A stretch of DNA of 56,046 bases, taken from positions 1-56,046 of the forward strand of contig JAJEIH010000030.1 of assembly GCA_022827685.1 (NCBI GenBank). The letters are read 5' to 3'. The position numbers and the translations under genes are program-made. This stretch comes from Alphaproteobacteria bacterium (lineage in GTDB: Bacteria; Pseudomonadota; Alphaproteobacteria; Bin95). Below are positions 2,080-28,963 of the stretch, one piece after another (position 1 is the first letter of the stretch; every line of letters begins with the position of its first letter). The notes under the pieces were generated by a model. The model was not told where the DNA came from, made no database searches, and worked only from the letters and a program-made list of their open reading frames with translations.

Positions 2080-2862
2080 ATGGAGTTCGAAGGCCGGACC
2101 GTCATCGTGACGGGCGCAGGCACGGGCGTGGGGGCGGCTGCCGCGGCGCGCCTCGCCGGGGGCGGCGCCAACATCATCGTCAACTACTCCCGCAGCCGGG
2201 ACGAGGCGGAGGCCGTGGCGGCCGCCTGCCGGGAGGCCGGAGGCGACGCCGCGGCGGTGCAGGGCGACGTGGCGAGCGACGAGGACTGCCGGCGCCTTGC
2301 GGCAGAAGCCGTCGCGCGCTGGGGCCGGATCGACGGCCTCATCAACAGCGCCGGGACCACGGTGTTCCGGCCCGGCAACGATTTCGACACGCTCTCCCAG
2401 GAGGACTTCCAGCGCATCTACAGCGTGAACGTCGTCGGAGCCTTCCTGATGACCCGGGCGGTGGCGGCGCAGATGAAGTCACAGGGCAGCGGCAGCGTCG
2501 TCAACATATCGTCCATTGCGGGCGTGATGGGCGTCGGCAGTTCCATTGCCTATGCGGCGTCCAAGGGCGCGCTGAACACGCTGACGCTCTCGCTCGCCCG
2601 CGCGCTCGCGCCCGAAATCCGCGTCAACACGGTGGCGCCCGGCTTCATCACCGGCCGCTGGTGGCGGGAGAAGATGGGCGAGGGCTACGACAAGATGGTC
2701 GCGAACACCGAGGCGGCAACGCCGCTCAAGCGCGCCGGCACGCCGGAGGACATGGCGGCCGCGGCCGTCTGGCTGCTCTGCGGCGACATCAACATCACCG
2801 GCGAAATCCTGATCTCGGACGCCGGCATGCATCTCGGCGCAGCACCCCTCAAGGCGCGCTGA
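2080..2862 (+). CDS. SDR family NAD(P)-dependent oxidoreductase
   Basis: A 260-residue classical short-chain dehydrogenase/reductase. The cofactor motif TGAGTGVG is at residues 11-18, NSAG near 89-92, the catalytic Ser in NISS at 144/145 and the Y158-x3-K162 pair in YAASK. The C-terminus continues with the VNTVAPG motif after the active site. The start at 2080 follows GGGGGAAGCGC; upstream in-frame starts lack a better ribosome-binding site. The fold and chemistry (alcohol/ketone interconversion) are secure. The substrate is unknown, and FabG-like names would be guesses. It converges with mmsA, 18 bp away. Confidence 0.9.
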   Translation: MEFEGRTVIVTGAGTGVGAAAAARLAGGGANIIVNYSRSRDEAEAVAAACREAGGDAAAVQGDVASDEDCRRLAAEAVARWGRIDGLINSAGTTVFRPGNDFDTLSQEDFQRIYSVNVVGAFLMTRAVAAQMKSQGSGSVVNISSIAGVMGVGSSIAYAASKGALNTLTLSLARALAPEIRVNTVAPGFITGRWWREKMGEGYDKMVANTEAATPLKRAGTPEDMAAAAVWLLCGDINITGEILISDAGMHLGAAPLKAR

Positions 2863-2880
2863 CCCGGAACCCAGGAAGGG

Positions 2881-4389
2881 TCAGTTCCGCGTTTCGCTGC
2901 CGGCGTGGAAGCTGAACACCGCGCCTTCGCGGATGCTTTCGGGCCAGCGCGCCGTCACCGTCTTCAGCCGGGTGTTGAAGCGCACGCCCTCCATGCCGTG
3001 GACATAGTGGTCGCCGAACAGCGAGCGCTTCCAGCCGCCGAAGGAGTGGTAGGCGACGGGTACCGGGATCGGCACATTGACGCCGACCATGCCGATCTTC
3101 ACGCGGCTCGAGAAATCGCGCGCCGCATCGCCGTCGCGGGTGAAGATCGCCGCGCCATTGCCGTATTCGTGCTCGTTCACCATCCGGATGGCGCTCTCGT
3201 AGCTGGGCGAGCGCACGACCGAGAGCACCGGGCCGAAAATCTCCTGGCGGTAGATCGACATGTCGGTCGTCACCCGGTCGAAGAGGCAGCCCCCGATGAA
3301 GAAGCCGTCCTCATAGCCCTGAAGCTTGAGGCCGCGTCCGTCCACCACCAGCTCGGCCCCGGCGTCGATGCCCTCCGCGATCAGGCCCCTTATGCGCTCC
3401 AGGCTCTGGCGTGTGATCACCGGCCCCATTTCCGATGAAGGGTCGGTATAGGGCGCGACCTTGAGGCCCTCGACGCGCGGCTTGAGCGTCGTCACCAGCC
3501 GGTCGGCGGTTTCCTCGCCCACCGGCACCGCGACGGATACCGCCATGCAGCGCTCGCCGGCCGAACCGTAGGCTGACCCGACAAGCGCGTCCGCGACCTG
3601 GTCCATGTCCGCGTCGGGCATGACGACGAGATGGTTCTTCGCCCCGCAGAGCGCCTGCACGCGCTTGCCGGAGGCTGCGCCGCGCGCATAGATGTATTCG
3701 CCGATCGCGGTGGAGCCGACGAAGCTGACCGCGTCTATATCCGGATGGTCGAGGAGCGCGTCCACGGCTTCCTTGTCGCCGTTCACCACATTCATCACGC
3801 CGTCCGGCAGCCCGGCCCGGCTGAGGAGTTCGGCGATGCGCACCGCCACCGACGGATCGCGCTCCGAGGGCTTCAGCACGAAGGCGTTGCCGCAGGCGAT
3901 GGAGACCGGATACATCCAGAGCGGCACCATGGCGGGGAAGTTGAACGGCGTGATGCCGGCTACCACGCCGACCGGCTGGCGAAGCGCGAAGCTGTCGATT
4001 CCGGCCGCCACGCCCTCGGAATATTCACCCTTCAGCAATTGCGGAATGCCGCAGGCGAACTCCACCACCTCGATGCCGCGCGCAAGCTCGCCCTTCGCGT
4101 CCGCAATCGTCTTGCCGTGTTCGGCCGACAACATTTCGGCCAACTCGTCCGTGTGGCTGTTGAGCAGGTTCCGGAACTCGAACATCACCGCCGCGCGCTT
4201 GGCCGGCGGCGTGGCGCCCCAGGCGGGCTGGGCCCTGCAGGCGGCCGCTACCGCATGATCCACGTCCGCGGCGCTCGCCATGCTGACCTTCGAGGCCACG
4301 GCGCCTGTCGCCGGGTTGAAGATATCGCCGGTCCGTATCGAAGCGCCGGCCCAGACGGCCCCGGAAACGAAATGCTGGACGGTGTTCAT
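2881..4389 (-). CDS. mmsA: CoA-acylating methylmalonate-semialdehyde dehydrogenase
   Basis: A 502-residue aldehyde dehydrogenase of the MmsA type, which converts methylmalonate or malonate semialdehyde plus CoA and NAD+ to propionyl- or acetyl-CoA in valine, inositol and beta-alanine catabolism. Family signatures include TPFNFPAMVPLWM near residue 147, VGSTAIG near 225 and the catalytic C281 in GSAGERC. The ATG at 4389 follows GGAGAGGA; the frame extends further upstream but without family similarity. It is downstream of the single-chain carboxylase on the same strand, which fits a propionyl-CoA route. The family assignment is strong; the exact physiological substrate is inferred. Confidence 0.92.
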   Translation of the reverse strand: MNTVQHFVSGAVWAGASIRTGDIFNPATGAVASKVSMASAADVDHAVAAACRAQPAWGATPPAKRAAVMFEFRNLLNSHTDELAEMLSAEHGKTIADAKGELARGIEVVEFACGIPQLLKGEYSEGVAAGIDSFALRQPVGVVAGITPFNFPAMVPLWMYPVSIACGNAFVLKPSERDPSVAVRIAELLSRAGLPDGVMNVVNGDKEAVDALLDHPDIDAVSFVGSTAIGEYIYARGAASGKRVQALCGAKNHLVVMPDADMDQVADALVGSAYGSAGERCMAVSVAVPVGEETADRLVTTLKPRVEGLKVAPYTDPSSEMGPVITRQSLERIRGLIAEGIDAGAELVVDGRGLKLQGYEDGFFIGGCLFDRVTTDMSIYRQEIFGPVLSVVRSPSYESAIRMVNEHEYGNGAAIFTRDGDAARDFSSRVKIGMVGVNVPIPVPVAYHSFGGWKRSLFGDHYVHGMEGVRFNTRLKTVTARWPESIREGAVFSFHAGSETRN

Positions 4390-12082: not shown

Positions 12083-12614
12083 AAGGGAGTTCGAGTTCGA
12101 TCTTATCTTTGCGCTGCCGGAAGGTGGGCTAGACGAAAGCGCGATTCTCGATGCGCTCCATGAAGCCGGATGCGACGATGCGGTGGTCGGTCTCGGCAGG
12201 CCGGGTTCCGTTGGTCTGGCATTCATCCGGGCCGGGCGGGACCCGGAGGCCGTTATTGTCGAAGCGGTCGGGCAGGCCGCGGCCGCGCTTCCCGAGGGGA
12301 CGGATCTTCGGGAGGTCCGGCCCGACCTCGTGAGCCTCGCGGATGTCGCCGCCCGGTTGCAGGTGACGCGGCAGGCCCTGCAAAAGCGGCCCATGCCGCC
12401 CCCTTCCCTTGGCGGCCTGTACCGGGCTTCGGAAATACCTGAACGGCTGCTAGCTGGCCGAGGAAAGTTGAGGGACCGTTACCTGGCATCGCGGGCTTGG
12501 TTCGACGCCGCGCCGGGCGCCCAGCGGGTAAATGCGAAGATCGGCCTCGGGGAATTCGTCCCAGCAGCCGAACTCCCGGAGATGGATGCGAAACCTACCG
12601 GCCGCATAGCGTAG
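12075..12614 (+). CDS. HTH-domain protein, putative HicB-like antitoxin/repressor
   Basis: A 179-residue protein with two parts. Residues 1-80 (FEFDLIFALPEGGLDESAIL, then DALHEAGCDDAVVGLGRPGS) form an alpha/beta domain. Residues 86-125 (SLADVAARLQVTRQALQKR, then YRASEIPERLL) look like a MerR/excisionase-type helix-turn-helix. The GTG at 12075 follows AGGAGG and overlaps the stop of the upstream small gene, implying translational coupling. An N-terminal alpha/beta domain plus a DNA-binding domain, encoded second, is the arrangement of hicAB operons, so it probably neutralises the upstream protein and represses the palindromic promoter. This role is inferred. Confidence 0.65.
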   Translation: MAEREFEFDLIFALPEGGLDESAILDALHEAGCDDAVVGLGRPGSVGLAFIRAGRDPEAVIVEAVGQAAAALPEGTDLREVRPDLVSLADVAARLQVTRQALQKRPMPPPSLGGLYRASEIPERLLAGRGKLRDRYLASRAWFDAAPGAQRVNAKIGLGEFVPAAELPEMDAKPTGRIA

Positions 12615-12668
12615 GTATAGGCGGTGCAGATTCGATACTCCCATACGGCTTAGAAGCGAGATTGATCT

Positions 12669-13304
12669 ATGGCAACCTATACATTTGTGCCATTCAATTT
12701 ACCCGAGGCGTCTGATTTTGCCGATTTGGTAGGTATTCGTCATGACCTCGAAAGCGCATGTAATTTGGCGAAAGAATTGAAATGCTATCTGGAACATATA
12801 TTCAAACAAGAGCTGAACAACATGCAAAACATAGACGCTTTTTCAACAGCAACCTTAGTAAGATATATTCGTCCATTTTCCAATGGAGCAAATAGAAGAT
12901 TGGGTGAATCTGTTTTGGGAAAATTAAATAAATATCAACGCGCTAAACATGATTACCTTAAGGCCTTTCGAGATAAGCACATTGCTCATTCTGTGAATGC
13001 ATTTGAGGAATTTCAACCAGTAGCTCGATATGTGGAGGAGCGTGTTGATGTAGAAGGCGTGTATGCTATCGAATGTCAGCACTCTCGGGTTGTGGGATTG
13101 AGTGTTGAAGATGTTGAAGACATAATCGAGCTTGCAACCATCATGCTCTGCCACTTAGAACATTTGTTGGAGATAGAGAAGCAGAAGCTATTGACCAAGG
13201 TTCGATCAATCCCACTTGAAGAATTGTTGTCTGCGGAAGAATTCCGGCACGCATCAAGCGATAAAGCTGACATTAAGAAACCCAGAAGGAAGCAGGGCCG
13301 CTGA
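12669..13304 (+). CDS. HEPN-like protein, AT-rich, probably horizontally acquired
   Basis: A 211-residue, mostly helical protein whose codons are far AT-richer than any flanking gene. It contains R101-D-K-H-I-A-H107, matching the R-x4-6-H active-site pattern of HEPN ribonucleases such as AbiU2-like proteins, within KAFRDKHIAHSVNAFEEF. The C-terminus is lysine/arginine-rich (KKPRRKQGR). HEPN proteins commonly act as RNA-cleaving toxins in abortive infection. It follows the HicAB-like module by 54 bp, suggesting an accessory or defence island, although co-transcription is unproven. Composition and motif are seen; nuclease activity is inferred. Confidence 0.65.
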   Translation: MATYTFVPFNLPEASDFADLVGIRHDLESACNLAKELKCYLEHIFKQELNNMQNIDAFSTATLVRYIRPFSNGANRRLGESVLGKLNKYQRAKHDYLKAFRDKHIAHSVNAFEEFQPVARYVEERVDVEGVYAIECQHSRVVGLSVEDVEDIIELATIMLCHLEHLLEIEKQKLLTKVRSIPLEELLSAEEFRHASSDKADIKKPRRKQGR

Positions 13305-13453
13305 CACCGGCCAAATATGCCGCAGCTAAGCATGCGGGTACAGCAATCGATCTGACGATTCGCTTCGTCGATTTGTGCGGTAGGGCTAATTGACTTGGAG
13401 CAAGACTATTCCTACAGCAATGAAAGTCGGCGGCGGACAGAAGGACTGGGGTC

Positions 13454-14065
13454 ATGGCGATCAAACTCTATCACTGCGTGCAGGCGCGCTCGATGCGGTG
13501 CGTGTGGACGCTGGAGGAGATGGGGCTCGACTACGAGCTGGTGACGCTGGAGTTCCCGCCGCGCGCCCACCACAAGGACTACAAGCAGGTGAACCCGCTC
13601 GGCACCGTGCCCTGCCTGATCGACGGCGATGTCTGGATGACGGAGTCGGGCGCGATCTGCCACTACCTTGTGGACCGCTACGGCCCGACGCCGCTCCGGG
13701 TGGCGGCGCACGAGCCGGACTATCCGCTCTGGCTCGACTGGCTGCACCGCAGCGACGCCACGCTGACCTTCCCGCAGACGCTGGTCTTCCGCTACCGCGA
13801 TCTCGAGCCGGAGGAGCGGCGCCTGCCGCAGGTGGTCGAGGACTACCGGCTCTGGTTCCTCGGCCGGCTGCGTGTGCTGGAGGCGGCGCTGGAGAGCCGC
13901 GACTATCTCTGTTCCGGGCGCTTCACCATCGCCGACATCGCCATCGTCTGGGCGCTGCATTTCGCAAAGCGGATCGGCATCGGGGAAGCCTTCACGCCCA
14001 ACATCCAGGCTTATTGGAACCGCACGACAGACCGCCCCGCCTTCGCCCGCGCCGCCGCGCTCTGA
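13454..14065 (+). CDS. Glutathione S-transferase family protein
   Basis: A 203-residue GST. The thioredoxin-like N-terminal domain starts IKLYHCVQARSMRCVWTLEE, with the VNPLGTVPCL cis-Pro loop and the ESGAICHYL glutathione-binding motif. The helical C-terminal domain contains FTIADIAIVWAL, the GST folding motif. It probably conjugates or reduces electrophiles with glutathione in the cytosol. G/C-rich codon use resumes here, marking the right edge of the AT-rich island. A ttgact at 13391 with tacagc 17 bp downstream is a weak promoter candidate in the 149-bp gap before it. Confidence 0.9.
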   Translation: MAIKLYHCVQARSMRCVWTLEEMGLDYELVTLEFPPRAHHKDYKQVNPLGTVPCLIDGDVWMTESGAICHYLVDRYGPTPLRVAAHEPDYPLWLDWLHRSDATLTFPQTLVFRYRDLEPEERRLPQVVEDYRLWFLGRLRVLEAALESRDYLCSGRFTIADIAIVWALHFAKRIGIGEAFTPNIQAYWNRTTDRPAFARAAAL

Positions 14066-23064: not shown

Positions 23065-23114
23065 TGGCCAGTGGATAGTGGATAGGGTTCGGCCTGACTG
23101 CTATTCACTGGCCA
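23065..23114. repeat. Inverted repeat after the YbdK-type gene
   Basis: The arms tggccagtggatag (23065-23078) and ctattcactggcca (23101-23114) pair over 14 bp, with one G-U in RNA, around a 22-nt loop. It begins 4 bp after the stop of the ligase gene. No T-run follows, so it is not a standard intrinsic terminator. It may stabilise the upstream mRNA or belong to a dispersed repeat. Confidence 0.6.
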
Positions 23115-23152
23115 CCGACCACCAGCCACCAACCGCCGGAGCCCGGTCCCCC

Positions 23153-24196
23153 ATGCGCATCCTCGCCGGCCTCGTCCTCATCGCCCTTGCCGCCCTGCCC
23201 GCCGCCGCGCCCGCCGCCGATGCGGGCCCCGACGAATACTGGCGCAAGGCCTGGCCCAACACGGATTTCAGCCGCCATTCGGTGCCGTTCGAGGAGATCG
23301 CGTCCGGCGGCGTCGCGCGCGACCAGATCCCGCCGATCGACGATCCGGTGTTCGCCTCAGTGGCGGAGGCGGAGAAGCTGATCGCGCCGACCGAGCCGGT
23401 GATTTCGCTGGCGGTGGACGGCGAGCGCCGCGCCTATCCGCTGGCGATCCTGATCTGGCACGAGATCGTGAACGACACCATCGCCGGCAAGCCCGTGGCG
23501 GTGACCTACTGCCCGCTCTGCGATGCGGCGCTGGTGTTCGACCGGCGGGTCGCGGGCCGGGTGCTCGATTTCGGCACGACGGGCCTGCTGCGCTTTTCCG
23601 ACCTCGTGATGTGGGACCGGCAGACGGAAAGCTGGTGGCAGCAGTTCCTGGGCGAGGCGATGGTGGGGGAGCTGACCGGCGAGCGGCTCACCATGCTGCC
23701 CTCGCGGGTGGAGAGCTTCCAGCGCTTCGCCGCCGCCGCGCCGGACGGCAAGGTGCTGATGCCGAACGACCCGGCCCTGCGCAGCTACGGCGCGAACCCC
23801 TATGCCGGCTATGACGGCGCGCACTGGCCCTTCCTCTACCGGGGCGAATACAAGCTGGCGGCGGTGCCGCCGCTGGCGCGCGTCGCCATGGTCGGCAAGC
23901 GGGCCTGGACGGTGGACCTGCTGAAGCAGAAGAAGCGCATCGAGGCGGGCGGTCTCGTGCTGGAATGGGCGCCCGGCCAGAACTCCGCGCTCGACCAGGG
24001 CGTGATCCGCGAGGGCCGCGACATCGGCAATGTCACCGTGCAGCGCCGCGCCGAGGACGGCGGCCTCGTCGATGCCGTCCATGACGTCACCTTCGCCTTC
24101 GCCTTCCTCGCCTTCGTGCCGGACGGCGTCATCCACACCATCTGCGGCCCGCATGTGAAGCCGGAAACCCTGCCGGACAACCTCGCCTGCGGGTAA
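23153..24196 (+). CDS. DUF3179 domain-containing exported protein
   Basis: A 347-residue protein with a signal peptide (MRILAGLVLIALAALPAAAP, then AADA) followed by a DUF3179 domain. Characteristic blocks are ARDQIPPIDDPVF, AYPLAILIWHEIVND, VAVTYCPLCDAALVFDR with its CPLC motif, and WDRQTESWWQQFLGEA. The family is widespread but its biochemical role is not established; the CxxC-like motif suggests metal or redox chemistry outside the cytoplasm. The ATG at 23153 is placed just before the hydrophobic signal. Confidence 0.88.
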   Translation: MRILAGLVLIALAALPAAAPAADAGPDEYWRKAWPNTDFSRHSVPFEEIASGGVARDQIPPIDDPVFASVAEAEKLIAPTEPVISLAVDGERRAYPLAILIWHEIVNDTIAGKPVAVTYCPLCDAALVFDRRVAGRVLDFGTTGLLRFSDLVMWDRQTESWWQQFLGEAMVGELTGERLTMLPSRVESFQRFAAAAPDGKVLMPNDPALRSYGANPYAGYDGAHWPFLYRGEYKLAAVPPLARVAMVGKRAWTVDLLKQKKRIEAGGLVLEWAPGQNSALDQGVIREGRDIGNVTVQRRAEDGGLVDAVHDVTFAFAFLAFVPDGVIHTICGPHVKPETLPDNLACG

Positions 24197-24612: not shown

Positions 24613-25050
24613 ATGACGAACGGAGCGGCGGACGAAGCGGCAGGCGCGCCGCCGACGGTCCTGCCGGCGCCGAGAAAGGGCCGGGCGGTGAACGAGGAGC
24701 TGCGGGGCCTGGCGATGGCGGCCGTGCTGCATGAGGGCATGAGCGGCAGCGCGGCGGCGCGGCGGTTCGGGCTGGGCAGGGCGACGGTCAGCCGGTGGGT
24801 GCGGCGGTATCGCGAGACCGGCCGGGTGCGGGCCGCCGCGCAGGGCGGCAGCACCGCGCGGCTGGAGCGGGCGCGGGGGCTGATCCTCCGCATCCTGGTC
24901 GCGCAGCCGGACATTTCCATGTACGGGCTGCGCGATGCGCTCGCCGCCGAGGGGGTGAAGGTCTATCCGACCACGCTGCAGCGCTTCCTGAAACGCCACG
25001 GCCTGGACCGCAAGACGCGCCGCACCCGGCGGCAGGCGGGCGGCGGCTGA
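24613..25050 (+). CDS. Orphan IS630-type transposase DNA-binding domain
   Basis: A 145-residue protein with two helix-turn-helix parts: residues 25-70 (ELRGLAMAAVLHEGMSGSAA, then RRFGLGRATVSRWVRRYRET) and 85-135 (MYGLRDALAAEGVKVYPTTL, then QRFLKRHGLDRK). These match the N-terminal DNA-binding half of IS630/Tc1-like transposases. The DDE catalytic half is missing: the frame ends RRTRRQAGGG and no DDE-like sequence follows. It is either a truncated transposase or a domesticated DNA-binding protein. The ATG follows GGAGGAGCGGAGACG, a good ribosome-binding site, which favours expression. Confidence 0.7.
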   Translation: MTNGAADEAAGAPPTVLPAPRKGRAVNEELRGLAMAAVLHEGMSGSAAARRFGLGRATVSRWVRRYRETGRVRAAAQGGSTARLERARGLILRILVAQPDISMYGLRDALAAEGVKVYPTTLQRFLKRHGLDRKTRRTRRQAGGG

Positions 25051-25430: not shown

Positions 25431-25754
25431 ATGAGCGCAGATGTGGCCTTGCGCCGGAAGCGGCCGGCCCTTAAGGCGACGTACCCGGATGTACTCGACG
25501 CTCCGCCGCATATGGCGTCCGAGATCATCAAAGGAGCATTGCGCCTCCAGCCGCAGCCGGCCAATAGCCACGCCATAGCCGGCTCCTCGCTCGGCATGGA
25601 AATAGGCAGTCCGTTCCGGTGGGGTCGGGGCAGGCCGGGCGGCTGGTGGATCGTCGATCAGCCGGAACTCCATTTCGGCGAGGACATGCTGGTACCCTAC
25701 CTTGTCTGTGGGGTGGGTAGGGGCCTCGGAATCTGTCGTGATGCGAGTCACTAG
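25431..25754 (+). pseudogene. Truncated Uma2-family (DUF820) endonuclease
   Basis: The first 85-90 residues match the start of Uma2-family proteins: ATYPDVLDAPPHMASEIIKG, LRLQPQPANSHAIAGSSLG and PGGWWIVDQPELHFGEDMLV followed by PYL. Uma2 proteins are PD-(D/E)xK-fold nucleases of about 180-200 residues, often linked to transposons. Here the homology ends after VPYL, within codons for the nuclease core, and the frame stops after a short unrelated tail (107 codons in all). The break lies 60-80 bp before the AT-richer HNH gene, so insertion of that foreign DNA probably truncated it. The start follows GGGGAGTGGAGAG. Confidence 0.7.
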
Positions 25755-25769
25755 AAGGGGTTATTTTCG

Positions 25770-26765
25770 TTGACTAACCTCGTATTGCTTCACAAGTCTG
25801 GCTCAAAGTACAAGGACCAGCCTGAGAGGCACTACCACTTTCCTAATCGACCCTATCTGAAGGCTATGAAGGAGGCGGTAGGAGAATGGATCGTTTATTT
25901 CGAGCCACAGGGCAAGAGCGCAGCAACTCCTGGCCGGCACGTTTATTTCGCGGCAGCGCGCATTGACGATATTGACCCAGACCCAGAAGACCCAAATCAT
26001 TCTTATGCCCGAATCACCGATTATTTCGACTTCCCCGAACTGGTGCATTTCAGGCGTTTGGATGGTACCCATTACGAAAGCAGGCTACAGCAACCAGACG
26101 GCTCCACGAATCGGGGGCTTCGACAATGGGCTGTGCGCCGTATTGATGCTGCTGATTTTTACTCTATTCGGGATGCTGGGATGATGATCCCAGAGCATCT
26201 CCAATTGTCCGATTCGTCTAGTTTTTCGGACTCCTATTCTTCAGAGATTGGCTTCTCGGAATACAGTATTTCGGAGTTCGATTTCTCGGATTCTGATTTG
26301 TCAGATCCTTCTTCATTCTCTCGCGCAGTCGTGCCCCTTTCGGGAAACCGGAAGGTCCGAGACCCGCTGTTCAGGGCTGCTGTTTTGCGAAGTTATGACT
26401 CGTGTTGTGCTTTCACGGATCTGAAGATTTTGAACGGTGGCAACCGAGCGGAAGTCGATGCTGCGCATATCGTGCCGGTAGGTCATAACCATCAGGGTAA
26501 CGACAGTGTCCGCAATGGGCTTGCATTGTCGAAGACTATGCATTGGCTGTTTGACCGAGGGATACTTGCCGTCGGCGATGACTATCGGATTATGGAATCT
26601 CCGGGACGTCTACCCGATAAGATTAGGCCGCTCTTTCGTCCGAGCGGCATAATTCGTGTGCCGAGGATTCCAGGAGAACAACCGAATCCCGAATATCTGC
26701 GATATCATCGCCAAATGTTTGAGGACGATTATGGAGAGTTTATACCTTTGGCAGTTGCCCAATAG
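25770..26765 (+). CDS. HNH endonuclease with PUA/EVE-like N-terminus, candidate type IV restriction enzyme
   Basis: A 331-residue protein with less GC-biased codons than its neighbours. The C-terminal HNH domain reads EVDAAHIVPVGHNHQGNDSV then RNGLALSKTMHWLFDRG, placing H233, N249 and H258 as the likely active-site triad. The N-terminal 140 residues (HYHFPNRPYLKAMKEAVGEW, then IVYFEPQGKS and YFAAARIDDI) resemble PUA/EVE-like readers found in modification-dependent nucleases. A Ser/Asp/Phe linker of about 40 residues (146-185) joins them. The TTG at 25770 follows AAGGGG. It probably cleaves modified invading DNA. The HNH part is solid; the reader assignment is inferred. Confidence 0.75.
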   Translation: MTNLVLLHKSGSKYKDQPERHYHFPNRPYLKAMKEAVGEWIVYFEPQGKSAATPGRHVYFAAARIDDIDPDPEDPNHSYARITDYFDFPELVHFRRLDGTHYESRLQQPDGSTNRGLRQWAVRRIDAADFYSIRDAGMMIPEHLQLSDSSSFSDSYSSEIGFSEYSISEFDFSDSDLSDPSSFSRAVVPLSGNRKVRDPLFRAAVLRSYDSCCAFTDLKILNGGNRAEVDAAHIVPVGHNHQGNDSVRNGLALSKTMHWLFDRGILAVGDDYRIMESPGRLPDKIRPLFRPSGIIRVPRIPGEQPNPEYLRYHRQMFEDDYGEFIPLAVAQ

Positions 26766-26945: not shown

Positions 26946-27185
26946 ATGTTCGAATCGGCCGACACGATTCCGATCCTGCTCGCCATCGTCGGCGTCGGCG
27001 GCGTTCTCGCCGGCATGGCGTGGCGCATGGCCGCCCGCCTTGACAGGCGCATAACCGAGGACAGGCGCGCCGCCGATGCGGACCGCCGCGCGTTCCAGCG
27101 CGCCATGGACGACTTCCGGACCGAGATGCAGCGCCTCGCCGAGCGGCACTCCCGCGTCGAAGGGTGGTTCAACGCCGCCGGATAG
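26946..27185 (+). CDS. Small membrane-anchored coiled-coil protein (family member 2)
   Basis: A 79-residue protein: a short N-terminus, a hydrophobic helix (ILLAIVGVGGVLAGMAW), then a highly charged helix (RRITEDRRAADADRRAFQRA) ending RLAERHSRVEGWFNAAG. It shares the VGxxLAG membrane helix, charged coiled coil and SRVEG-type ending with the proteins at 9316 and 44658. The ATG at 26946 has only a weak ribosome-binding site. It lies between a GMC relic and a palindromic element. Function unknown. Confidence 0.65.
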   Translation: MFESADTIPILLAIVGVGGVLAGMAWRMAARLDRRITEDRRAADADRRAFQRAMDDFRTEMQRLAERHSRVEGWFNAAG

Positions 27186-27346: not shown

Positions 27347-28963
27347 TTATCCCCGCGCATCCTCCAGCGCCATGGCGGCGCCCTTTTCGGCGATCATGAT
27401 GGTGGGGCTGTTGGTGTTGCCGGAGACGATGGCGGGCATGACCGAGGCGTCTATGACGCGGAGGTTCTCCAGCCCGTGGACCTTCAGCCGGTCGGAGACG
27501 ACCGCTTCGCTGTCGCTGCCCATCCTGCAGGTGCCGACCGGGTGGTAGGTGGTGGTGCCGAGGTCGGCGGCGGCGCGGGCCAGCTCCTCGTCGGACTCGA
27601 AGGCGGGGCCGGGCACGAACTCCTCCGGCGCGTAGGGCGCGAGCGACGGCGCGGCAACGATGCGCCGGGTCAGCCGCACCATATCGACCGCCACCTGCCG
27701 GTCGCCGGGCGTGGAGAGATAGTTGGGCCGGATCGCGGGCGGCTCTTCCGGGTCCGGGGATTTGAGCGTGATCCAGCCCCGGCTCTCCGGCCTGAGGTTG
27801 CAGGGCGAGGCGGTGAAGGCGGGGAAGGTGTGCAGCGGCTCGCCGAACCGGTCGAGCGAGAGCGGCTGGACGTGATATTGCACATTGGCGGTCTCGCGCG
27901 CGGGGTCGGACTTCGCGAACGCGCCGAGCTGGCTCGGCGCCATGGTGAGCGGCCCGCGCCGGAACAGGATGTATTCGAGCCCCATGCCGAGCCGGCCCCA
28001 GAGGCTGTTCGCGCGCCGGTTGAGCGTCTCCACGCCGGAGACCCGGAACGCCATGCGGATCTGCATGTGGTCCTGGAGGTTGCCGCCGACGCCGGAAAGC
28101 TCGTGCAACACCGCCACGCCCTTCTCCTGCAGCAGCGCGCCCGGCCCGACGCCGGAGACCTGCAGCAGATGCGGCGAGCCGATGGCGCCCGCCGCCAGGA
28201 CGAGCTCGCCCGCGACCTCCGCCCGTTCGTCCCGCCCCTTGCGGCGGAATTCGAGGCCGGTCGCGCGGTGGCCGTCGAAGTGAATGCGCCGCGCGCGGGC
28301 GCCGGTCAGCACGGTCAGGTTGGGGCGCTTCTCCGCCGGCCGCAGGAAGCCGCGCGCGGTGTTCCAGCGGGTGCCGCCGCGCTGGTTGACCATGAATTTG
28401 CCGGTGCCCTCATTGTCGCCGTCGTTGAAGTCCGGCGTCGGGTGCAGGCCGATATCGGCGCAGGCGCGCTGGAAGGCATCGAGGATTTCCCAGCCGACCC
28501 GGGGCTGCTCCACCCGCCACTCGCCGCCCGTGCCGTGGAACTCGTCCGGCGGGCCGAAATGGTATTCCGACTTGCGGAACCAGGGCAGCACGTCGTCCCA
28601 GGACCAGCCGCGATTGCCCATCTGCGCCCAGCCGTCATAGTCGCGGGCCTGGCCGCGCATATAGACCATGCCGTTGATCGACGAGGAGCCGCCGAGCCCC
28701 CGGCCGCGCGGATAGGGGACCGTGCGCCCGTTCAGCCCGGGCTCCGCCTCGGTGGCGAAGCACCAGTCGGTGCGCGGGTTGTTCTGGGTGTAGAGATAGC
28801 CGACGGGAATCCTGATCCAGATGTAGTTGTCCCGGCCGCCCGCCTCCAGCAGCAGCACCCGGTTGCGCGCGTCCTCCGACAGCCGGTTCGCCAGCACGCA
28901 CCCCGCCGAGCCCCCGCCGACGACCACATAGTCGAAGCTGCCGACGCTCTGAGGCTGGGTCAT
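27347..28963 (-). CDS. GMC-family FAD-dependent oxidoreductase (choline dehydrogenase-like)
   Basis: A 538-residue GMC enzyme. [20 protein letters not shown] is the FAD-binding N-terminus, [20 protein letters not shown] is GMC signature 1 and LAAGAIGSPHLLQVSGVGP is signature 2. The active-site His in YHPVGTCRMG and Asn in GNTNSPT are present. It oxidises a primary alcohol and is likely membrane-peripheral. It lies 43 bp after tldD on the same strand. It is a paralogue of the enzyme at 17702; a decayed third copy of the C-terminus lies just to its left. Confidence 0.9.
   Translation of the reverse strand: MTQPQSVGSFDYVVVGGGSAGCVLANRLSEDARNRVLLLEAGGRDNYIWIRIPVGYLYTQNNPRTDWCFATEAEPGLNGRTVPYPRGRGLGGSSSINGMVYMRGQARDYDGWAQMGNRGWSWDDVLPWFRKSEYHFGPPDEFHGTGGEWRVEQPRVGWEILDAFQRACADIGLHPTPDFNDGDNEGTGKFMVNQRGGTRWNTARGFLRPAEKRPNLTVLTGARARRIHFDGHRATGLEFRRKGRDERAEVAGELVLAAGAIGSPHLLQVSGVGPGALLQEKGVAVLHELSGVGGNLQDHMQIRMAFRVSGVETLNRRANSLWGRLGMGLEYILFRRGPLTMAPSQLGAFAKSDPARETANVQYHVQPLSLDRFGEPLHTFPAFTASPCNLRPESRGWITLKSPDPEEPPAIRPNYLSTPGDRQVAVDMVRLTRRIVAAPSLAPYAPEEFVPGPAFESDEELARAAADLGTTTYHPVGTCRMGSDSEAVVSDRLKVHGLENLRVIDASVMPAIVSGNTNSPTIMIAEKGAAMALEDARG

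Follow-up and report, generated by a model that had tools for sequence, protein, structure and literature searches.

A foreign-looking nuclease gene at a variable genomic site

The window, that is, the whole 56,046-nucleotide stretch of DNA analysed here, contains an open reading frame exactly as the initial annotation had placed and described it (Table 1). Its product had been called an HNH endonuclease, and Pfam HNH_2 indeed matched it with 42.7 bits for a cut-off of 21. We refer to the gene as EVE-HNH, after its two predicted domains. The TTG start is common to the relatives from the genus and to a relative from another family (L005), as the loci were extracted by script. In the more distant relatives among the extracted loci, an ATG or GTG start lies near the equivalent point. 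A scan for promoters and terminators gave no informative result. The foreign look ascribed to the gene is borne out by its composition: G+C is 50.6% as compared to 68.8% in the window, and only 11 of 1101 gene-length segments (overlapping, taken in 50-nt steps, the gene's own included) are equally low.

A second low-G+C patch (0.474) was seen at positions 12501-13500. It contains a 211-aa ORF (12669-13304, + strand) that had no match in Pfam and is possibly another foreign gene. Upstream of the EVE-HNH gene, a 145-aa helix-turn-helix protein (24613-25050, + strand) resembles a transposase N-terminus (HTH_23 and other matches).

Table 1. Features of the EVE-HNH locus, in window coordinates
Feature	Position	Strand	Basis
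Putative EVE-HNH endonuclease gene, 331 aa, TTG start	25770..26765	+	ORF reading, Pfam HNH_2, AlphaFold2 model, Foldseek, VIA
Shine-Dalgarno-like GAAGGGG, 9 nt 5′ of the TTG start	25754..25760	+	Sequence reading by eye
Predicted N-terminal EVE/PUA-superfamily sensor domain, residues 1-138	25770..26183	+	AlphaFold2 model, VIA, alignments A1 and A3
Predicted disordered Ser/Asp/Phe-rich linker, residues 141-187	26190..26330	+	Low pLDDT, comparison of linker lengths
HNH_2 nuclease core, residues 213-268 (H233, N249, H258, D262)	26406..26573	+	Pfam, alignment to VcaM4I and TagI, conservation
DUF3179 protein, flanking the variable site on the left	23078..24196	+	Pfam; also to the left of the site in G004 and G006
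Right flank: conserved 79-aa protein without Pfam match	26946..27185	+	
Right flank: GMC oxidoreductase	27347..28963	-	

The gene was present in four of the eight genomes of the genus, always beside the same GMC oxidoreductase. At this site, G004 carries a phosphorothioate-dependent HNH enzyme (NF045808, 263.8 bits for a cut-off of 180) together with a PIN_10/DUF433 pair. In locus L002, apparently from the same contig as G004:C38 (length 33,218 in both), about 1.8 kb separate this NF045808 enzyme (2251-3204, - strand) from the EVE-HNH gene, and the PIN_10/DUF433 pair lies in the interval. In G007, whose contig C252 is apparently also that of L003 (length 12,615 in both), the PIN/DUF433 pair is on the opposite side of the gene as compared to G004; neither the window nor the G006 region has the pair. 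In G005 (L086, 2123-5367, + strand), the right flank is the same and the site carries a type IIG restriction-methyltransferase of 906 aa (PADLOC, E 1e-230); the G005 region, compared over the right flank, has no EVE-HNH gene, no NF045808 enzyme and no PIN/DUF433 pair. A 175-aa ORF 5′ of the type IIG gene in G005 matches only the C-terminal end of PF01555 and is perhaps a remnant. Absence of the EVE-HNH gene from G001, G002 and G003 is uninformative because G002 and G003 are cut by contig edges close to the site and G001 gave no match to the flank gene (E 1e-150). Overall, the locus is a variable site for restriction genes within the genus.

The C-terminal HNH domain and its predicted active site

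Family members were compared in an alignment of 21 rows (A1) and in one of 18 rows (A3), which additionally lacks L019, L028 and L030. Left out of A1 were L003, L004 and L016, which correspond to one place in G007 with an assembly gap of 10 N; L009, L024 and L032, with an internal stop or an overlong frame; L001, L006, L014, L015, L020 and L040, identical or nearly identical to a row in use; and L011-L013, L017, L018 and L037-L039, with a different or missing N-terminal part.

A profile of the 21 members matched TagI (6e-9) and VcaM4I (5e-7) via the HNH domain, and a profile-profile comparison with three VcaM4I-like proteins gave an E-value of 5.8e-13 on the HNH domains only. Using VIA, the modelled HNH part was superimposed on TagI with a Z-score of 13.3 and an rmsd of 2.5 over 112 aligned residues (27% identity). 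Profile alignment placed H233, N249, H258 and D262 opposite H224, N241, D250 and D254 of VcaM4I, respectively. The first three residues are invariant in all 21 members, and D262 is found in 20 of them. The available text of PMC7897488 describes the VcaM4I mutants H224A, D250A and D254A as drastically impaired in activity in vitro. As judged from these alignments, the C-terminal HNH domain carries the predicted catalytic residues.

The N-terminal domain is predicted to have an EVE fold

The AlphaFold2 model built from A1 had a mean pLDDT of 80.4, with most of both domains above 80. Values were below 50 at residues 49-55 and 146-190 (34-36 over residues 151-190) and low near residues 221-230. 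When the model was compared to the PDB with Foldseek, the EVE-HNH enzyme VcaM4I ranked first (E 4.0e-6), followed by TagI (E 1.5e-5) and by the EVE protein THYN1 (E 1.3e-4). Superposition on the whole length of VcaM4I was poor, with a TM-score of 0.25 and an rmsd of 17.8 by Foldseek and a Z-score of 9.9 and an rmsd of 15.6 over 217 residues by VIA. Therefore, the agreement with VcaM4I concerns the domains and not their relative placement.

In the VIA comparison of residues 1-138, the highest scores were obtained with PH1033 (2hd9; Z 13.4, rmsd 2.8, 128 aligned residues), 2p5d (Z 12.7) and 1zce (Z 10.7), which we take to be EVE proteins, and with 2eve (Z 10.3); the McrB N-terminal domain reached 10.1, the best YTH domain 9.7 and the best ASCH domain 9.6. 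Only the first two or three rows set EVE clearly apart from YTH. Both 2eve and THYN1 are named as EVE proteins in the available text of PMC7897488, where the EVE assignment of VcaM4I relies on a similar quantitative criterion, EVE proteins topping the list. Overall, the N-terminal domain of the model has an EVE (PUA superfamily) fold. This agrees with the PUA/EVE-like reader proposed in the initial annotation, and the predicted fold is thus not unrelated to those of base-flipping readers. Residues 1-138 had no match in Pfam, NCBIfam or PADLOC. The Pfam EVE model, absent from the window protein, matched two of the 21 aligned members (best E 0.036). This missing match is no defining failure since the census of PMC7641849, in its available text, includes EVE domains that are detectable only by sensitive methods.

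The Ser/Asp/Phe linker described at first is real, with 68% S/D/E/F over 47 aa, but it is not a trait of the family. Its counterpart measures 22 aa with 36-41% S/D/E/F in two relatives from the genus, and 28-37 aa with 21-47% in the other 18 aligned members; among the extracted loci, the expansion recurs only in G007. Within the linker, at 26271-26299, there is one imperfect 15-bp tandem repeat. The Ser/Asp/Phe stretch is best seen as a lineage-specific, local expansion of a flexible linker. Between residues 138 and 187, a stretch modelled with low confidence, no helix of at least four residues was found. Because the linker of VcaM4I is an autoinhibitory helix according to the available text of PMC7897488, whereas the one here, in its low-confidence region, is predicted to be disordered, control of the nuclease may differ from that in VcaM4I.

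The sensor domain is diverged and behaves as a module

Residues of the sensor that are invariant in A1 include Y14, D16, Y22, F24, P25, Y29, Y43, Y59, E103 and R123. Profile alignment of the sensor with the EVE domain of VcaM4I detected no sequence similarity (probabilities of 0.4% and 0.1%). The base pocket of VcaM4I, formed by E15, W22, S23, P24, W82, Q128 and Y130, is not transferable to this sensor since the two domains do not align. An ungapped register, noticed by eye, would bring D16 opposite E15 and P25 opposite P24 of VcaM4I; it was not counted as evidence.

Across 398 genomes of the phylum, the N-terminal profile matched 27 times, counting the window's own copy. In 25 of these matches, the HNH domain of the present family follows downstream on the same strand and in the same frame (one, in G663, was flagged with an in-frame stop). 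The remaining two are a truncated copy and L125, where the sensor is fused to a different HNH domain. L125 (1501-2310, + strand, 269 aa), from another class of the phylum, combines the sensor with a PF01844 HNH domain (27 bits for a cut-off of 21.4), and its HNH_2 score is below the cut-off. With this HNH domain downstream in 25 of 27 cases and an HNH domain of another type in one, the sensor behaves as a module. What appears new here, as far as sequence comparison goes, is a sensor without detectable similarity to that of VcaM4I, which also combines with an HNH domain of a further type; the finding on C5 methyltransferases in carriers, described below, is a new point as well.

Lack of a conserved methyltransferase partner

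The gene had also been described as lacking an adjacent methyltransferase. In agreement with this, Pfam found no DNA methyltransferase when the five closest window ORFs were scanned, and screening the 128 window ORFs of at least 150 aa for motifs gave one match, which is antisense to other genes and not methyltransferase-like. In relatives, 32 loci were considered, namely 7 annotated plasmid regions and 25 genome regions, with about 6 kb on each side and less at contig ends. A DNA methyltransferase gene was present in two of the 32, a cytosine methyltransferase in Roseomonas and a type I system in Rhizobium johnstonii; the motif screen of neighbouring ORFs of at least 150 aa missed the truncated type I methyltransferase gene of L047, visible in the annotation, and could also miss other divergent or cut methyltransferase genes. 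The types being different, these loci argue against a conserved cognate partner. The screen match in L049 presumably resembles the 16S rRNA methylase RsmD, and the matches in L050 and L053 seem to be spurious. In Agrobacterium tumefaciens F2, at a locus outside the 32, a DNA-cytosine methyltransferase was seen about 19 kb from the gene. Since no methyltransferase is conserved beside the gene, a solitary type IV enzyme fits these data.

Distribution of the family and the base that it may read

A search of the class at 1e-10 gave matches in 28 of 385 genomes, and 24 of the 385 (about 6%) have both domains; G052, G096, G359 and G366, with HNH-only or otherwise partial matches, account for the difference. 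On plasmids, 89 records matched, 40 of them across at least 80% of the protein, and many are from Rhizobium, Sinorhizobium and Agrobacterium. The 30 plasmid matches listed are labelled as HNH endonuclease, restriction endonuclease or hypothetical protein, or are unannotated. Among viral contigs, one stretch matched a pattern and no relative was confirmed; phage records gave six matches, to the HNH part only.

Among the matches listed, a C5 methyltransferase was found in 10 of the 24 carriers as compared to 133 of the 361 other genomes, which is no depletion (Fisher p = 0.67, in a test that takes no account of phylogeny or genome size and presumes the same genomes in both class searches, of 385 genomes each). 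There was still no depletion when all 28 matching genomes were counted (14 of 28 against 129 of 357, p = 0.16). An in-frame stop was flagged in four of the 24 carriers. Judged from the proteins extracted, it lies within a domain only in G098, those of G025, G147 and G179 falling at or beyond the end; without G098, 10 of 23 carriers have a C5 methyltransferase (p = 0.51). C5 matches occurred in 143 genomes and exceeded the family cut-off in 140 of them, and the host genome has two PF00145 and seven PF01555 matches.

Because carriers are not depleted of C5 methyltransferases, context-free cutting at 5mC is unlikely, and general 5mC is a less likely target than a narrow sequence context or a different base. 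This argument is not conclusive since a restriction-modification system and a type IV enzyme can coexist by silencing, as the available text of PMC8989522 reports for PcaII. Modified cytosines, the target first proposed, may be what the enzyme attacks. Tentatively, the sensor could belong to a separate EVE lineage that reads a mark other than 5mC or 5hmC, for instance a hypermodified base of alphaproteobacterial phages, or that demands a strict context, a possibility that we regard as somewhat doubtful. Such a lineage would explain both the C5 methyltransferases of the carriers and the absent sequence similarity to the sensor of VcaM4I.

A solitary modification-dependent endonuclease as the best explanation

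Overall, the gene very probably encodes a solitary modification-dependent (type IV) EVE-HNH restriction endonuclease. The type IV reading of the initial annotation gains support from the EVE-like fold, with VcaM4I as the best Foldseek match, and from the lack of a conserved methyltransferase in the 32 relative loci. By analogy with VcaM4I, the EVE-like domain would scan incoming DNA, flip a base out and hold it if suitably modified. As suggested by the conserved active site, by VcaM4I and by TagI, the HNH domains, probably dimeric, would make a metal-dependent double-strand break nearby. No methyltransferase would be needed because the host would be without the targeted modification in the recognised context. 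Cleavage of this kind may serve against phages. Composition and patchy presence suggest that the gene was probably acquired horizontally; it lies at a site where relatives carry other restriction genes.

The HNH domain of HhiV4I is 35% identical over residues 178-316, its PUA domain apparently does not serve as a modification sensor according to the available text of PMC11037411, and the PADLOC model 'HNH, type II restriction enzyme' matches the HNH part with an E-value of 1.6e-7. These data could be reconciled with an orphan type II-like HNH enzyme, in which the N-terminal domain would recognise an unmodified sequence or, as seems to be the case in HhiV4I, only aid binding. However, cutting at unmodified sites would kill the host, no methyltransferase being conserved nearby. 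The linkers, of 22-47 aa in the 21 members, contain no winged helix of the HhiV4I kind and are too short for a second DNA-reading domain. Moreover, the N-terminal domain accompanies this HNH domain in 25 of 27 cases and another one in one case, as a specificity module would. The orphan enzyme therefore has little probability.

That the protein is a nuclease toxin or an abortive-infection effector, its EVE-like domain being directed at modified host DNA or RNA and not at phage DNA, is very improbable. EVE domains are known in toxin-antitoxin contexts (PMC7641849, available text), and some relatives have PIN/DUF433, HipA or RelE/ParE genes nearby. Yet such neighbours are inconstant, as seen from the PIN/DUF433 pair missing in the window and the G006 region, and the domain layout equals that of a known DNA-cutting restriction enzyme. 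A phosphorothioate-dependent restriction enzyme of the SBD-HNH type is scarcely credible, although a relative carries an above-cut-off NF045808 protein at the same site and the HNH domain itself scores 65.5 bits against NF045808 of NCBIfam. Indeed, this score is far under the cut-off of 180, the match is limited to residues 188-279, that is, to HNH, and the N-terminal fold is EVE-like.

If the solitary type IV enzyme is active, modified DNA would meet a widespread barrier in soil and symbiotic bacteria, and the family might yield a reagent for mapping a DNA modification. Coexistence with C5 methyltransferases makes the question a concrete one: which base do these enzymes read?

Comparison with known systems

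The census of Bell, Wolf and Koonin (PMC7641849, available text) recognises a class of EVE-HNH proteins, putatively type IV enzymes. The class is thus already described, and the present subfamily may add a diverged sensor to it. Judging by titles and abstract openings, we found no paper that describes this subfamily.

The NF045808 SBD-HNH enzymes are alike in their HNH part, whereas the remainder is unmatched and the total score stays below the family cut-off. HHPV4I/HhiV4I, which are m6A-dependent PUA-wH-HNH enzymes in the available texts of PMC10101028 and PMC11037411, share the HNH domain (35% identity over 142 aligned columns). They differ by an extra winged-helix m6A sensor, and BLASTP gave no significant alignment between the N-terminal part of HhiV4I and the protein studied here. 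TagI (PDB 6ghs), an SRA-HNH enzyme, has the same HNH fold, with the Z-score and identity given above. Its sensor is an SRA domain, whereas the best-scoring solved structures for the present sensor were EVE proteins, followed by an McrB N-terminal domain and by YTH and ASCH domains.

VcaM4I (PDB 6yex; PMC7897488, available text) differs in having D250 where the present protein has the classical H258, in a sensor that cannot be aligned by sequence and in its helical autoinhibitory linker, as compared to the predicted disordered one here. The two proteins nevertheless share the order of the domains, EVE then HNH, a similar length (309 and 331 aa, respectively) and an active site that can be aligned.
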